Shown here in pieces: positions 19,276 through 53,804 of a stretch of DNA of 64,000 bases. The DNA lies in assembly GCF_000165425.1 (NCBI RefSeq), contig NW_001799619.1:252578-316577 (forward strand). The letters are read 5' to 3'. This DNA comes from Paramecium tetraurelia (taxonomy: Eukaryota > Ciliophora > Oligohymenophorea > Peniculida > Parameciidae). Position 1 is the first letter of the stretch, and every line of letters starts with the position of its first letter. Under the pieces are notes generated by a model. That model did no database searches. It was not told the DNA's origin and worked only from the letters and a program-made list of their open reading frames with translations. A program made the position numbers and the translations under genes.

Positions 19276-19989
19276 ATGATAATTAGAAGATGTTCAATTT
19301 CTAATTCTACATCTCAAAGATCATAGTCTTAAAAGTAATAACTCAGTAAATAGTATTGTAGAATGTCAGAAAATGAATAATGCAGTAGTAATTCTCACTT
19401 CTCAACATGCTGTAGCAATACTTCTTCAGAAAACGACGAGGTCGATGATCCTTTGAATTATGCTTCCTTTAAAGATTTCCAAGTGGTCTTGCCACTCTTG
19501 ATTAATGGTGTCAGAATACAGAAGGTGACTTGGGATCTCTTCTCTGCTCCACCAAATTTATATTCTCAATGGAAGGCCCATTGCTATTGGACTGTTGGCT
19601 ATACATATGAGATAACAATGAAAAAAATGAAACAAAGCAATAAAATACGATATAGATTAACTGTTAATGCTTGGTGTTCTTTAAATAGCAAATCGTGGGT
19701 TAAAAATAAATGGGATCGCTTGTTGGAACATGAGACTGGACATTATCTCATTGGGTGTTTGTGTGCTTTGGAATTCAAAGCGAGGTAAAGTGGTCAAATC
19801 TATTGTAGAGCTGACCAAACTAAATTTACTAGGAACTATCGCCTTGAATCTACATAAATCTTCTAAGATACTTTCTAGGAGTATCTCTCCCTGGAAAGAA
19901 GGTACGACGAAGAGACCAATCACAGTCAAAATATTAGCAGATAAAAGGAGTGGAATGAATTCATCATTAAGGAATTACAAAAATACTGA
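19276..19989 (+). CDS. putative zinc metalloprotease, DUF922-like
   Basis: The centre reads SWVKNKWDRLLEHETGHYLIG, containing HExxH (HETGH), preceded by tryptophan-rich strands and VNAWCSLNSKSWVK. This spacing is that of the DUF922 family of predicted Zn-dependent proteases, mostly bacterial. The N-terminal 60 residues are serine/glutamine/cysteine-rich low complexity, and an internal ATG (MSENEQ, 19363) may be the true start. The C-terminus is charged and helical. There is no intron and no signal peptide. The two histidines and the glutamate of the active site are present, so it may be active. A bacterial origin is possible but unproven. Confidence 0.6.
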
Positions 19990-20024
19990 TTTTATTATTA
20001 TTAATAATATATCTACAAATATTA

Positions 20025-21287
<1,263 letters not shown>

Positions 21288-22073
21288 GTATAATAGTTTT
21301 TAATTTAAGTCACTACTTGGTTATTATTAATTTGTTTAATCGAAAATGTCTCTTATTATCTTATCTAATATTGTGAAATATTAGTATACAGATATGCATC
21401 TTTTTTTAAATTTCTCAAAATATAGAATAAATGTTAATTTAATTATATTACTTTCCAATTTATTTTATGAATATAATTTTTCACAATATGATATTTTAAA
21501 ACCTTCTTTATCTTGGTTATTTACTACTCTTCTAAATTATTATTTATGTAATTTTATTTTTATAATAATATGATTAATATATAATCTTTGAAATTTAATT
21601 TATTTGATTTGGAGATATCTTATTATTTTTCTCTTTTTATTTCTACTAGTAGTTTTCTTAATATCATTTCTTCTACCTCTATTTATAAATGTATCAATAA
21701 ATATTTTCTAACCACTTATTTTTTGAAAATTTTATTTTCTATAAATGATCTTAGTTTCCCTACAATATTATTCATCATAAATGAGTTTCAATTGATATCA
21801 CCCCTCAATCTATTGTTTTAGTATCATATTTTAATAACCTTAATTTTTTATAAAAAATTGATTTTTTTAGCTATTCTAAAATATGGTTAAGATTATTAAT
21901 AAATTCATGCTCTAGTTTTTCTCTAATTCATTTTTTATTAGATATTAACCTGATTGTATCATAGTTATTTTAAACTATTCCAATATAAATATAATGCTCC
22001 TTATTATTATGATTATTCATAAATATGTTAAAGAGGTGTATAAATTGTGATCATTAAGTAATACATCATCAGT
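21288..22073. other. AT-rich spacer, possible small ORF on minus strand
   Basis: This is roughly 790 bases between the kinase gene and the tRNA. The only feature is a TGA-free frame on the minus strand from 21778 down to 21270, starting MMNNIVGKLRSFIENK, lysine- and isoleucine-rich and overlapping the end of the kinase gene. In DNA this AT-rich, with only one stop codon, such a frame can arise by chance. I see no splice-supported gene. Confidence 0.35.
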
Positions 22074-22144
22074 GGCTTGTTAGTATATCGGTAGTACGCT
22101 TGCTTTGGGTGCAAGTAGGTCGGGTTCAATTCCCGAACGAGCCC
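22074..22144 (+). tRNA. tRNA-Pro (anticodon TGG)
   Basis: A complete cloverleaf. The acceptor stem GGCTTGT pairs with ACGAGCC, including one G-T pair. The anticodon stem CTTGC/GCAAG encloses loop TTTGGGT with anticodon TGG, reading CCA (proline). The T arm contains GGTTCAATTCC, which is also the internal B box. The yeast tRNA-Pro(TGG) has the same anticodon loop. There is no intron and the CCA tail is not encoded. A run of six T follows at 22148-22153. Confidence 0.93.
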
Positions 22145-22244: not shown

Positions 22245-25200
22245 ATGAACAAGTTAATCCTCAATATTTAGTTCTCCCAGTAGGTCAAGTTCAAAATTGC
22301 TTTTGATGCTTCAAATTAGAAGACATTTGAATAATTAAAGCAAATCTGTGTGCAAAGATTAGAATCCTTCCATAAGGTAATCATAATATTTAAATTAGAT
22401 ATCCCCTGATAATGTTAAGGATACACTGCCAAACACATTTGATCCCTCATAATATCATCTAACAGATTAAACAAATTTTATCCTCAGCGATTAAGATGTA
22501 GTTGAAGATTTATGTTCGAACAATGAATTAATACATCTTGTGTTCAATTAATCTTTATCAGCCTCAATTTTGGATCCACTTAAAATGTCTAGTTCATTAG
22601 GGACTCAACTGAATACTCAATCAACCTTATAACCATAATAACAATAGCAAGTTTCTTCAATACCTCCTCCCCAACAGATTTAACCCCCTCCCCAACAGAT
22701 TTCACCCCCTCCTTAGTAATAATAAGTTCCAAACCCTGTATAACCTCAAATTAAGCCTTAGTAAATAGATGATGGCATGTTGGATGAAATTGGAAAGAGT
22801 GAACTTAAAAGGAAATTCTATTTAGATACATCAAAGTGGAATTTAGTTTAATAAATCCAAAGTGATATAGAGATTAGCATTAAATTTTTATAAGCAGAAA
22901 ACTAGACTACTTAATACAACATTGGATGTTCATTAGAAGACACTCTATACAATTTATCAATAAAGATTTGCAATTAACTCTAAATACCCTAAGAATAAAA
23001 TCATGCTGTTTTGTATAACTTAAGCGGATTGCCTTTGGTTAGCAATTTGAATTAGCTTCATCAAAAGACTGTAGAGGATACGATCAACAAACTTTAAAGC
23101 AAAGTCTTCTATGCCATAATCACTAAATGTTCAGCAGGAGATAAGTCTTTTCCTAAAATTGATTCTGATGAAGGAAAGGATCAGATCTTCATTATTCATC
23201 AAGGACCCAAAGTCATTAAGGTGGATATTGAAAACACAACTGTAATACAATTAAAATAAAAAATATACCATAAACTCAATATACCAACAAATGTCCAGAC
23301 TTTAAATTACGGAGGCAAATTATTAACAGATTCTTTACTCCTTAAGGATTACAATGTATAGAATAATTCAAATTTGAATCTTACATTTAAATTAAACCAA
23401 TTGGTTAGCCATGCTGATAGTTACAATTATAACTTCTATATGCCTTGGCTTAGCCATTTTGTAAAGTAGAGTGACGAGGGAATTAGACAATTTAGATGCA
23501 ATATGCTCGTTCTATTTGCAAAGGAAGATCACCTCAAGTGGTCTCATGCCATTAGATAATACTCAAATAATAACACTCCTCTTACTTTGGCATCTGTATC
23601 TTTGATCAGAAAATATAGACTTAATTAGAATGCTCGTATAGCTTTTGAAGAAGGGTTTCTTAGATTGTTTTTTGATTTGATTATCTAAAGTCCATAAGTA
23701 CCTGCTGCATTTGAAATTGGCTCAACCTTTGAGTATACAAGATAATGGATTCAATTTCTACATTCAGAAACTGCTAAGTACAAGGAAGCTGACATTAAAT
23801 TGATCGAATACTATAGGAATCTTGAATATACTTGTTAGGTCACTTTAAGTCCCATAGAAACTCCGGCTTTTCTATCCTTAAGTAAAGATGATGATATAAC
23901 AGCCTACTAAATAGTCGATTACAATATCCTAAAAGAAAAATAAGAAACACAAGAAAAGCATTCTAATGGCAAATTATTTTCAGAATTGAGTTTAATTTAG
24001 GATCCTAGATTAGAGGAACAGTTCAAGATAATCAAATTCTTAGAAAAGGAAGATCTCATATGGTTACCTCAAACAGATTTTAAAGACGGCAGAGATCTTA
24101 ATTCAATACCTGCAGAATGGCATAAGAATGAAGATTTAAAAATCAATGTTCTAAAGATTTATAGTTCAGTCGAATTGAAATAACACCCCACTGCTCCTGT
24201 TCTCACTAAGAACTCTTAAAAACATTTAGTCATCTACACATCCATGAACAAAGATGTAGCCAAACCTGTTAATTTGTTTGATCCAATTAGTGGCATTGAA
24301 TAACCTGAAAATCCAGATCAAATTGCCTATAATTAGGTCTTACCAAATGCAAAGATTGCTCCTGGAAAAGTTGATGATGATGATGATGAGGATTCTTCAA
24401 TTTAATTGGTAACTCAAATAACTGTTGAGCCAGAGGAAGCTATTATTGTATTAATTGATATTTCTGGTTCCATGGAAGAGGAATTCTATAACAGTGAGGA
24501 TCTGACAAGATTGGGTGTAGTTAAAGCTTTCTTCAATGCTTTTGCAGACAGAACAATGGCATACAATCTCAAAAATGTCATCTCTCTAGCTTATTTTGAT
24601 GATCGATACATTTTGAAATGCGGCTATACTGAACTTTTCATGTAATTTAAGGATTTGGTAAATAAGGCTAAACCTTAAGGTATGACAGCTTTATATGTGG
24701 CTCTCAAGAATGCTATTGATTCTCTTTTATAATTTAAAAAGAAATATCCAAATTGTATATTGAGAATTATTGCACTCACTGATGGGGAAGATAATAAAGG
24801 AAGATATAGTCCTGAATTTATTGCACAAACAATTCTTCAAAATTAAATCATCCTTGATTCTTTTGTTGTCTATGATAAATGTGATGGCTTAAAATAAATC
24901 ACCAAGGCTGCAGGTGGACAGTGTTTCTGCCCTAAAACTATATAAGAGGGTTTGAAATTATTTGAATATGAAACCATCTTATCAGCTAAAATAAGGAAAT
25001 AATCAGAATCATTAACACCAGCCAAGGTAACTGCAATTTTCCAATAAGATCCAAAAACGATCTAATTTGATGTTTAACCAAGAGAATTCGAGTTACCTTT
25101 AGAATTAAAAAAACAATCTATTAACCCAAAATAATTGGTTAGTAAAATTAGTTCTGATTCATAATAACTTAATTTAATTGCTCCTCACAATTATCTCAAA

Positions 25201-25797
25201 AGAGTGATGAAAGAATTGATGATTTATGAATAAAAACCTCATCCCTTTGTCAAAGTGTTCCCATGCTCTCATGATGTGTCCTTCTGGAAGATTATTATGG
25301 TTGGTCCTGAGTAAACCCCATATTCAAACGGAATTTATATTTTGTATATGAAGTTCCCTTAGGAATTCCCATTACAACCACCTGATCTTAGATTTTTGAC
25401 TTCCATCTACCACTGCAATATCAATAGCCAAGGAAGAATATGTCATAGTATCTTAGGCAGAAACTACACTCCTGATACAAAAGTAATTTAGATCTTTGAG
25501 GCAGTTTATGGTATTTGTTAATATTGAAATTATTAGGTCTTCTCATGACTCCTGAACCTGACGATCCTTTAGATACAACCATAGCCTCTGAGTACATGCA
25601 AGATTTGAAGTTGTACTTAGAAAAAGCAACCAATCACACTCTTAAATTTGCCAAAAGACCTATGGATGAAGTGTTGAAAGAAATACTTGGTTCGGTAGGG
25701 GAGGAAAAAGACTTAAGTGATGTTGAGTTGTAAGAGAAGACTAACGAAATTCTTAGTTGGGTAAGTAACGCCAGTAAACCATAATGATTTATGTAGT
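22245..25797 (+). CDS. ubiquitin-like / von Willebrand A / E2 ubiquitin-conjugating fusion protein
   Basis: One protein of about 1,165 residues with introns at 22377-22398 and 25511-25536. Order of parts: a ubiquitin-fold-like N-terminus; a P/Q-rich linker (IPPPQQIQPPPQQ); a ubiquitin-like domain near residues 300-380 (IIHQGPKVIKVDIENT, NVQTLNYGGKLLTD); a helical region; a VWA domain with intact MIDAS start DISGSM, and TDGEDN; and a C-terminal UBC fold: PQEFPLQPPDLRFLTSIYHCN, QGRICHSIL with the active cysteine, then TPEPDDPLD. The usual E2 HPN is HCN and the residue after the active cysteine is histidine. It probably transfers ubiquitin or a relative to a partner chosen by the VWA domain. Domain identities are firm, the role is inferred. 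Confidence 0.85.
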
Positions 25798-30139: not shown

Positions 30140-31568
30140 TCAAGTATTTTGAGTATAAGCCTTCTCAAATTCTTAAACAAACGTATCAATTTCTTGCTTT
30201 GTTAAACCTATCGCACATGCAACTGTGATATAAGGTGTAAAATAATTATCTAAAATATTATAAGAAATACTCGTTACCACAATGACTTCCGTAATTTTTG
30301 AATTCAATACCGCAAACTACCTTATTTTTTTTATTTGTAATAACCCTTGATCCCATCACTTTTTTAGAATATAATATGGCTCCTAATTTAGTAATTTAAT
30401 TTTTTTCTTCTTAATTATTCTAATCAATTTTTAAGTTCTACAAGCTTATGCCAATAGAGATGCTATTTTTAGGAGTATTAAGTATTTGTTCAGAAATTTT
30501 CTATGTCATGATTTAAAGTTTCTCTTTAAAATATGCGTAATTTTCTACTCTTTCCTTTTGTAATTGCAAATAACCTGATTTGCCCATAGACAAAAAGGTA
30601 ATAAATAAATCTAAAATTGGAGCAGCACTTGCTCTGCCTGGATACAATTCACTAATTTATTTAATGAGCTTTTTATCATTGCCATATATCAAAGCCCCGC
30701 CAACAGGAACCATAAAGTTTTTATCAGTGCTTGAAACAATCAAGTTGACTGTTCCTTAAGCTAATCCTAAATTAATGGAGTTGGCTATTTTATTACATTA
30801 AAGGCCATACGCATTGTTAACAACATGGTATATTGAGAATTACTTACAGATTTTAGCAATTTCCCCAATGTTATCTGGAATTCTGGGTGCGAAACAACTT
30901 GTAGTGCTTAAAACACATACAATATTGTCTGGTCCAATTTCATTAACTTTTTAGATTAACATATCTAAATTAGTTGTTACGACATGGTCTTGGATCACAG
31001 AGTCAATTACTATGGGAATAAGGTTGGCTGTTTAAATGCATTTTAAGCATGTTTTTTAATCTATTCTTGGCCATAGAACGTATTTTGCTTATGGCTTTAA
31101 AGATTTCAATGCCAATAAACAAAGTGATATTGCCATTCCTGTAGCAACAGGTACAAGAAGCAATTCATTAATTTGATAATTGCTCAACTTTAAAGCGTCT
31201 TTAGCTAAATGCTTAGTTAATTTGGCTATTAAAGAGGATCCTGCAGCTTTTGGTTGGCTGGCAATTAGATCTCCTGATCTTCCAATTCCATGTCCCATGT
31301 AATAATTTCTTTTTTAAACAAGTGCTGAGAAAATTCTGCTTTCTCTTTCTCCCACACCCACTTTATTACTAAAATTGTTGGTATCCATAGTTGCAAATAT
31401 GTTGAGCAAATATTCAATTGTAAGATCATCGAAACCTTCTTCAGGTAATTGTCTTTAGGATAGCAATAATTTAAACAGCTTCTCTTTAGCATTTAGAGAA
31501 TTTGAAGCTATTTTGACATATTTATCATCAATTATTTCAGAGCAGAGTTTAAGATTTTACTAATTCAT
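30140..31568 (-). CDS. SEPSECS: O-phosphoseryl-tRNA(Sec) selenium transferase (SepSecS/SLA)
   Basis: PLP enzyme that converts phosphoseryl-tRNA(Sec) to selenocysteinyl-tRNA(Sec). The match to animal SepSecS runs end to end: [85 protein letters not shown] with the PLP lysine in DKNF, and [10 protein letters not shown] single 28-nt intron at 30250-30277 gives SHC-DNYFTPY, matching human SH-NNY. The C-terminus is shorter than in human. Start [15 protein letters not shown] lies 27 nt from the divergent MSH6 start, so both share one tiny promoter. No frameshift is seen. The organism therefore makes selenocysteine even though TGA is its only stop codon. Confidence 0.93.
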
Positions 31569-31595
31569 TAGTTATTAAAAATAATTCGCGGTATA

Positions 31596-34500
31596 ATGAA
31601 GTAAACAACACTTTAAAGGTTCTTGACTTCTTCATAGAAAAAGAATCAACCTACAGGCTTAAATAACACTAAAGTCTCTAATGATAATAGTTTGATCGAA
31701 GAAAAAAAGATTGAAATCTAATATATCAAGCCAGCCGCTTCATTTTAAAAGGAGGAGGGAGTTAAAGTAATTAAAGAGCAAGTAGTTGAAAATGTTCAAG
31801 AGAAGCCACAACAATTAAGCAGATTAAAAAGAAATAGCATTGTAGATAGTGAAGATGAATAAGAAAAAAAAGAAGTGGATCAAAACGAACTCAAAATTGA
31901 TAAATTCACTTTTGTGGGTTCTTAAGAAAAGAATAAGGAGAAAAAGTCATTGGCTGTCTTTATTAAATAGGATAATACAAAAAATAACACAAAAACTTCT
32001 TAAAAGCAAAAAAAATCAGAATGTGATAAATCTGGCAAACCTTTGAAATAATCTGCAAAATTAGAGGATGAGGAAATTGACTATTCTTAAGAAAATAAAT
32101 AAGGAAATCTAGATTTCAGACATCCCACAGACAAGATCAATGTATATGAAGAGTTTGATGATGTGACTCCGAAATGGGCAAGTATTGGCCTATCTAGAGA
32201 TAAAAGTGGTAAATTACATGGGACTTCAGATGCAGATCCAACAACCCTCTTAATTCCTTAAAGTGATTTCAATAAACTAACCAAATGTATGCAATAATAT
32301 TGGAAATATAAGAGTGAAAACTTTGATAAAATCATCTTTTTCAAATTAGGAAAATTCTATGAATTATTCTATGAAGATGCCTACATTGGAAATAAATATT
32401 TAGATTTGAATTGGATGGGAAGAAAGATGTAATTAATTCAATATATATGATAATAGGCATACAGGATTCCCAGAAAAAGCAGTCCACAAATATAAGGCTC
32501 TTTTATTGGAGTATGGATACAAGGTTGTAATAGTAGATCAAACAGAAACTCCAGAATAAATGAATCAAAGAGTAACCTAAAATAAGAAGACTGGATAGGG
32601 GAATACTGATAAAATAGTCCAAAGATAAATAAGTGAGATCTTGACGAAAGGGACGTATTTGTATGAAGAGGGAGAATCATAAATGAATCTAGATGAAAAG
32701 GTTTTACTAGTGATAAGAAAGAAAATCATATCGAACGCAATAGAAGAATATGGAATAGCCATTTTAGAAAGATAAACAAATACGATATCACTTGCATTTA
32801 TTGAAAATCGAGATAAGAACTATGAGTCTCTCAAGACTTTATTACTTCACATGAGACCTGTGGAAACAGTCATTGATTAGCATAATCTACCCTCGCATGA
32901 TCCAATTACCAAAATGATAGGGGGATCTGTTATTTAAAGTGTGATTTCACATCTTACAGCATCTTAAGATAATTGGGATGAAAAGAAGGCCTTATTTAGA
33001 CTTGAACAGTATTATTAAAATGAATTTCCGCCAGCCATTAAATTCTATAAGAACAATTAAGTTGTCCTTTAAGCTTTAAATGGATTGTTTACTTATTTGA
33101 ATTATATCCTAATTTTAGATAAAGTTCTGGGATGTGCAAGATTCAAAATATATAATGAAGTATTTTCACTACAACAATGTATGATTTTAGATAGTCAAGC
33201 AATTGTATAATATTACATTATTATTCTAGTATCATTTAGAGATTCTGTAAACTACTAATTCAGTAGACAAAAAAGACTATTCCTTGTTTGGTGTCTTAAA
33301 TAAAACAGTTACTCCTGGTGGACATCGATTATTAAGAAGGTGGGTTTGTGCTCCCCTTTATTAAGTTGATCAGATTAGAGAGAGATAGGCAATGGTGTGT
33401 GATATCAGCAACTTTAGAAAGGAGAGAGATTTGTTTAGATAGAGTATTAAGCAATTTCCAGATTTTGAAAGAAGATGCAGTAGAATTTATGAATACTCCA
33501 TCAAATCTGAAAGTAAAGCCGTATTTTATGAAAACCTCTCTGAATAACGACTAAAAGAATTTAAGAGTTTGACCTCAACTTTGAAACTTGCTTAGGAAGA
33601 GATAACCTTATTCGGTTAATTGTAAATCAACTTCAAAAGTGAAAGGTTAAGAAAAATGATGACTTTTGAAGCTAATGGAGGTTTATTGCCCAATGTTTAG
33701 GAATAATTAAACGAATTTGAATAATATATCATTTGGGAAAAGGAAAAAGATAAAGAAATCCCTAAACCAGTTCCTGGAGTCTTAGATACTTATGATCAAT
33801 CAATTGCTGGAGTTCAATTAGTTTAATAGAAACTTGATAATTATCTCTAGCAAATTAAAAAAATATTATTTAAGAATAATGGTAATATTCAGTTTGTGCA
33901 TACAAAATTTAGATACGAGATTGAAATTCCAGATGAGTTAGTGGAAAAGTCAAAACCTGAAGATTTTGAATTTACATCTTCAAGACAGGGATACAAGAGA
34001 TATATCACTAAAGAAATTAAGGATATGGTTACTGAGTTAGAATAAGCAGAGGAATTGAAAAAGTAGTAATTAAATGCTTTTGGGAATTTCATATTCAAGC
34101 ATTTTTAATCTAATTAAAGTGTTTGGGATACTCTTATTAAAATATTAAATGAATTGGATGCATTATGTTCCTTGAGTGTCTTTGGAGATACTTCAGAAGG
34201 GAAGATGACTATGCCCACATTCAATACTGAAAAAACAAAGTTAGTTATTAAAGAAGGGAAACATCCATGTTTGTCCAACATCAATTTTGTATCTAATTCA
34301 ATTGATATGGGAGAAAAGCTGTGTAAATTTTAATTATTGACCGGTCCTAATATGGGAGGAAAAAGCACTACTCTAAGAATGGTCTGTGTTCTAGCCATTT
34401 TAGCCTAACTTGGATGCTCAGTTCCATGTGAGGAAATGGAACTCTCTCCTATAGATAGGATATTTACTAGAATAGGTGCAAAAGACTATCTAATGGAAGG

Positions 34501-34969
34501 GAAATCAACATTTTATGTGGAATTAGAAGAAACATTAATACCATTAAAATATGGAACCAAAAATTCTTTGTTTATCACCGATGAATTAGGAAGAGGAACT
34601 TCCACATATGACGGAGTAGCTATTGCTTCTGCTGTTATGCATTATCTTATTAAGACTATTTAATGTAGAGTCTTATTTGCAACTCATTTCAGAATTCTGG
34701 TTGAAGAGGCCAAACTAATTAGTGAAGTTACAAATGTTCATATGGCTTGTTATATTTAAGATGGGAAAGTCATCTTTCTATATCGATTAAAGGAAGGAGC
34801 ATGCGAAGCATCTTTTGGGATTAATGTGGCTAAAGTGGTAGGAATCGAGAATTCCATAATTACTCGAGCTGAAGATATGGCAAATTTCTTTGAAAATAAG
34901 GTTCAAAAGAACACAGAACAAACTCTGCAAAAGTTTAATTAAATTATGAAGGAATATGGGATTGTGTGA
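31596..34969 (+). CDS. MSH6: MutS homolog MSH6 (mismatch recognition)
   Basis: With MSH2 it forms MutS-alpha, which recognises base mismatches. The N-terminus MKQTTLQRFLTSS is a PCNA-interacting (PIP) box as in other MSH6 proteins, followed by a charged linker. Domain I has IIFFKLGKFYELFYEDA, containing the Phe-x-Glu mismatch wedge (FYE). Then come the connector, lever (LRRWVCAPL) and clamp. The ATPase has Walker A GPNMGGKST, DELGRGTSTYDG (Walker B) and ATHFRIL, then EGACEASFGINVAKV. Two introns are seen: 28 nt at 32429-32456 and 25 nt starting at 33208. The frame is otherwise unbroken over about 1,100 codons. Shares a 27-nt intergenic gap with SepSecS. Confidence 0.93.

Positions 34970-50549: not shown

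Positions 50550-53804
<3,255 letters not shown>

Follow-up and report, generated by a model that had tools for sequence, protein, structure and literature searches.

A multidomain ubiquitin-conjugating enzyme of Paramecium tetraurelia from a eukaryotic family that joins VWA and E2 domains

Gene structure and domain layout

We analyzed a 64,000-nucleotide stretch of the Paramecium tetraurelia genome (contig NW_001799619.1, positions 252,578 to 316,577; here, the window) that contains a gene encoding ubiquitin-like, VWA, and ubiquitin-conjugating (E2) folds in a single protein. A preliminary description, made from the sequence alone, had placed these folds in one frame between positions 22245 and 25797. 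The start and the single gene stand; however, the gene ends at 25787, and introns break the N-terminus and the E2 domain. Translation followed the ciliate code (table 6), in which TAA and TAG encode Gln. The nearest named homologue, that of Paramecium octaurelia (P0001, 1157 amino acids; 97% across the region compared), carries the annotation of a single protein and contains both splice junctions of the window gene. Domain boundaries were drawn in part from AlphaFold2 (AF2) models.

22245..25787, + strand: whole gene; exons 22245-22376, 22399-25510, and 25537-25787; 1164 amino acids; stop codon TGA at 25785-25787
22245..22551, + strand: N-terminal beta-grasp-like region, residues 1-95; secondary structure of the P0001 AF2 model; the weakest of three such regions
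22377..22398, + strand: intron 1, 22 nucleotides, GTA...TAG; junction after removal is that in P0001
22867..23124, + strand: second beta-grasp-like region, residues about 201-286; AF2 model of P0001
23221..23391, + strand: ubiquitin-like domain proper, residues 319-375; Pfam PF00240, aligned with ubiquitin
23410..23805, + strand: helical domain, residues about 382-513; AF2 models
23812..24042, + strand: probable degenerate U-box/RING-like domain, residues about 516-592
24166..24339, + strand: small beta domain ahead of the VWA, residues about 634-691; AF2 model
24427..25011, + strand: VWA domain, residues about 721-915; metal ion-dependent adhesion site (MIDAS) motif DISGSM from 24457
25201..25634, + strand: UBC/E2 domain, residues 979-1114; HCN at 25411-25419; catalytic Cys at 25441-25443, followed by His
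25511..25536, + strand: intron 2, 26 nucleotides, GTA...TAG, within the E2 domain; removal gives AVYGLLMTPEPDDPLD, the same as in P0001

A Pfam search of the 1164-amino-acid protein recovered all three folds far above chance: UQ_con at residues 979-1114 (E = 1.1e-35), ubiquitin at 319-375 (E = 8.4e-12), and VWA_2 at 726-841 (E = 3.6e-6). The ubiquitin fold that had been proposed is therefore present at an internal position, and the other two regions are only beta-grasp-like in the P0001 model. When compared with the Pfam-detected ubiquitin-like domain, residues about 201-286 gave a profile match of 61.7% and residues 1-95 a low match of 5.4%. The helical domain (residues about 382-513) had no match to a named family.

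The gene thus encodes, as the preliminary description proposed, an E2 fused to a ubiquitin-like domain and to a VWA domain, and the MIDAS of the latter is complete. Alignment and census place all five MIDAS residues (DxSxS, Thr, and Asp) in the window VWA. The predicted structure of the E2 is UBE2D-like and very close to UBE2D itself; in both sequence and structure, the domain is matched best by E2s for ubiquitin, chiefly those of the D and E groups. Equivalents of His75, Asn77, Cys85, and Asp117 (UBE2D numbering) are kept, the catalytic residue being Cys1059 with His1060 as its neighbor. F62 and the SPA loop form the usual RING contact of E2s; here, Leu replaces F62 and TPD replaces SPA, with Pro95 kept. 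This lost docking surface for ubiquitin ligases (E3s), together with a probable internal U-box-like domain, had been overlooked in the preliminary description.

The ubiquitin-like domain is internal and lacks a C-terminal GG, nor does it retain, as such, the positions equivalent to Ile44 and Val70 of ubiquitin. Because of these features, the alignment with ubiquitin leads us to reject a conjugatable or patch-mimicking domain, and residues 319-375 more likely serve in docking than as a substrate or mimic.

The VWA-E2 family and its two classes

Three protein searches yielded 267 proteins, 169 of which have both a VWA and an E2 according to profiles built from the family. Two of the searches contributed the best 120 of 212 and the best 120 of 293 matches, many of the 212 being ordinary E2s. 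This set leans toward relatives of the queries; class counts are not population frequencies, and the absence of tetrapods is uninformative. The VWA lies ahead of the E2 in 169/169 proteins. The preliminary description knew of no described eukaryotic E2 with this layout; at least 169 proteins with a VWA followed by an E2 are in fact on record, most of them "uncharacterized" or unnamed, and one fish entry bears the label "putative bifunctional E2/E3 enzyme R795," a designation known from Mimivirus. Record names place the family in, among others, Paramecium, Tetrahymena, Saccoglossus, Glandiceps, Amphiura, Lampetra, and many ray-finned fishes, as well as in sponges (Oscarella, Oopsacas), fungi (Elaphomyces, Ciborinia, Sclerotinia), and a Trimastix transcriptome. 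Some fish homologues (P0208, P0218, P0232, P0234, and P0237) carry extra RING or OTU domains in precomputed Pfam annotation, which suggests further domain gain.

The residue that follows the catalytic Cys divides the family. Class 1, to which the window protein belongs by its VWA followed by an E2 with the GRICH motif, has His at this position (146/169), and class 2 has Leu (21 proteins) or Ile (2 proteins; 23/169 in all). Catalytic residues are conserved throughout, with His75, Asn77, and Cys85 in 169/169 proteins and Asp117 in 165/169. The motif Asn supports isopeptide formation (PMC10971424), and Asp117 orients the incoming lysine (PMC5095918). Each MIDAS residue, counted singly, is kept in 167/169 proteins, the remainder being gaps save for one Lys in place of Thr. 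Class 1 is changed beside the catalytic Cys and at positions 87, 90, and 93, Trp93 being replaced by Tyr in 141/146 proteins.

HCN and Cys-His near the active site had been read as hints of a special E2 class. Together they do mark a distinct class, but HCN alone does not. It replaces HPN in 140/146 class 1 proteins, 13/23 class 2 proteins, and 1/94 ordinary E2 matches, and it falls within the canonical motif, given in a 2024 paper as histidine-proline/cysteine-asparagine (PMC10971424).

The docking surface also differs between the classes. F62 and SPA occur together in 2/146 class 1 proteins, 20/23 class 2 proteins, and 94/94 ordinary E2 matches; for F62 alone, the counts are 2/146, 23/23, and 94/94. 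Standard RING/U-box docking residues are thus lost in 144/146 class 1 proteins. After thinning to <70% identity (24 class 1 and 17 class 2 representatives), His75, Asn77, and Cys85 were present in 41/41, F62 was kept in 1/24 class 1 versus 17/17 class 2 proteins, and SPA was kept in 1/24 of class 1. Two short, unnamed proteins, P0043 (502 amino acids) and P0044 (448 amino acids), combine Cys-His with F62 and SPA, and their sequences make them possible intermediates between the classes. When an E2 tree was built from 60 selected rows, a single branch split class 1 from class 2 (support 82/31; recovered in 98% of 200 bootstrap trees), and the deeper relationships to ordinary E2s were not resolved.

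Copies in the genome and the origin of the module

The source genome that we searched (69 Mb, 231 contigs) contains two class 1 genes, the window gene and C22, and two short class 2 genes, C88 and C91. The docking surface is complete in C91, and C88 has Leu for Ala96. In both P. octaurelia and P. sonneborni, each of the two Cys-His copies has a counterpart. The P. sonneborni homologue P0002 (85%) was found by protein search, and P0004 (P. primaurelia) and P0005 (P. pentaurelia), at 56%, group with C22 and have the same layout as the window protein. Against the window protein, the joined VWA-E2 modules of C88 and C91 score E = 1.1e-77 and 1.9e-76. No VWA-only stretch appeared at E = 0.001 among the genome matches listed, in which the best candidates were scored; this favors a single origin of the joined module.

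A link to bacterial ubiquitin-like operons had also been raised and is unsupported. A scan of prokaryote genomes, limited to short motifs that divergent relatives could escape, returned pattern matches but no relative, and the window gene, set against such operons, is eukaryotic and has introns. Pfam scans of 10 of the window's long open frames turned up no ubiquitin-like, E1, E2, or deubiquitinase operon partner. Motif scans of viral contigs gave pattern matches and no relative, although short motifs may miss divergent ones, e.g., Hokovirus-like proteins.

U-box domains within the family

A simple pattern found a C-terminal U-box in 63/267 proteins, and a profile built from 60 of those superseded it. 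With the profile, a U-box follows the E2 in 128/146 class 1 proteins, 23 of which have another U-box ahead of the VWA. The 18 class 1 proteins without a C-terminal U-box are P0001 to P0007 (six from Paramecium and one unnamed), in none of which the profile found it, together with three proteins from fungi, three from EukProt, and five that are unnamed. The window protein itself stops 50 amino acids beyond its Pfam E2 match. The ciliate form without a C-terminal U-box is either a loss form or an older form.

At this place ahead of the VWA (residues about 516-592), the model of the window protein resembles U-box and RING folds, and the family profile gives a match of 96.7%. A Foldseek search with the middle piece of the protein gave no match at E = 0.001, and a U-box test restricted to ciliate sequences failed. 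These residues are probably a degenerate U-box.

Interpretation and alternative explanations

We judge it about evenly balanced, from sequence and predicted structure, that the window protein is a catalytically competent multidomain E2 of a widespread eukaryotic VWA-E2 family that works like an E2/E3 hybrid. E1 would load ubiquitin onto Cys1059, the VWA metal site may grip a partner or substrate, and ubiquitin would then be transferred largely independently of ordinary RING ligases; these putative steps are why we liken the protein to a hybrid. Transfer could be aided by the U-box-like fold in cis or by a dedicated partner. A broader proposal, which we hold more tentatively, is that class 1 comprises self-contained E2/E3 enzymes of ancient eukaryotic origin, in which the E2 gave up the general RING docking surface and remodeled its active site about a Cys-His pair, with U-boxes driving it in cis and the VWA metal site gripping the substrate; P0043 and P0044 would be intermediates. 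One U-box would then be hidden ahead of the VWA, and the other would be absent in ciliates.

Dependence on separate E3s is possible, though somewhat less probable than the hybrid-like enzyme: the VWA and ubiquitin-like domains would place the protein in a complex, and the altered loop would fit another RING or HECT partner. The nearness of the E2 fold to UBE2D, the Pro95 retained within TPD, and the absence from the Paramecium proteins of the C-terminal U-box seen in 128/146 are all consistent with this, as is the docking surface retained by the other VWA-E2 class of the genome (full in C91, with the one Leu substitution in C88). However, the absence of F62 and SPA from 144/146 proteins argues against it, as does the U-box that most class 1 members possess.

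It is unlikely that the E2 serves a modifier other than ubiquitin or uses its own ubiquitin-like domain as a built-in donor mimic. The two domains do share a chain, and residues beside the catalytic Cys and at positions 87, 90, and 93 are altered; against this, the closest matches are E2s for ubiquitin, mainly of the D/E groups, and the ubiquitin-like domain has neither the terminus nor the conserved Ile44 and Val70 positions of a donor. Still less probable is a catalytically dead scaffold whose E2 fold only binds partners, which the unusual active-site neighbors might suggest; the catalytic Cys, His75, and Asn77 in 169/169 sequences lead us to reject it. Short introns make ciliate gene models prone to error, but that two or more adjacent genes were read as one is very unlikely, and we reject it because P0001, P0002, and the C22-type copies in other Paramecium species show the joined layout, a single open stretch of 1092 codons (22249-25524) covers the ubiquitin-like domain, the VWA, and most of the E2, and the VWA-E2 order is invariant across the 169 proteins.

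The VWA-E2 family spans ciliates to fishes and is present in databases; we found no published study of such a protein in open-licence full-text literature, a weak absence given that subscription journals lie mostly outside it. If the hybrid-like enzyme works without separate ligases, it would be another route to E2 and E3 activity within a single polypeptide. A natural paired test is offered by this Paramecium genome, which contains one VWA-E2 class that keeps the docking surface and one that lacks it.

Other features of the window

A tRNA-Pro (TGG) gene lies directly upstream of the E2 gene (22074-22144, + strand), and a protein kinase open frame lies farther upstream (19631-21373, + strand; Pkinase E = 3.5e-62). 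A homologue of SepSecS, an enzyme of selenocysteine synthesis (30189-31631, - strand; E = 8e-113), suggests that this ciliate produces selenoproteins. The window also contains an open frame that resembles MutS and carries its domains III, IV, and V (33185-34966, + strand) and an NAD(P) transhydrogenase with alpha-type and beta-type matches in one open frame (51744-53453, - strand).

Comparison with known systems

Fishes, sponges, and hemichordates have VWA-UBC-U-box proteins that share with the Paramecium protein the core of VWA followed by E2, the HCNIN..GRICH signature, and the MIDAS; the aligned fish, echinoderm, and hemichordate members have 25-29% overall identity to P0001. They differ in their added C-terminal U-box and, in 11/28 aligned members, a SAM-like N-terminus, whereas neither is seen in the Paramecium protein, which begins with a beta-grasp-like region. 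The short ciliate VWA-E2 proteins (C88, C91, and Tetrahymena P0039-P0042) have the same domain order and a homologous module at 35-39% identity; however, most are about 556-600 amino acids long, with no room for the helical and U-box-like parts, and they have Cys-Leu or Cys-Ile, keep F62, and mostly keep SPA. Hokovirus HKV1 A0A1V0SEK3 (1329 amino acids), compared by fold alone, aligns over 1359 columns in Foldseek (E = 1e-38), but with 16% identity, a TM score of 0.35, and a root-mean-square deviation of 23 Å.

Unlike the window protein, UBE2D and UBE2E (UbcH5-type) are single-domain enzymes with HPN, Cys-Leu-Asp, and a docking surface of F62 and SPA. UBE2O and BIRC6 (class IV) resemble the window protein as large multidomain E2s, E3-free working being possible in both cases, and their accessory domains differ from those described here. 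Such large E2s are already known (PMC5095918, PMC2964712); the latter paper, on PARP evolution, calls E2s with several functional domains unusual. UBE2O has been termed a hybrid E2/E3. The noncanonical UBE2Q enzymes, according to the 2024 paper, likewise have an altered active site, in which His and Tyr residues are important, but are without the HPN motif (PMC10971424), whereas the family of the window protein retains an intact His-X-Asn.
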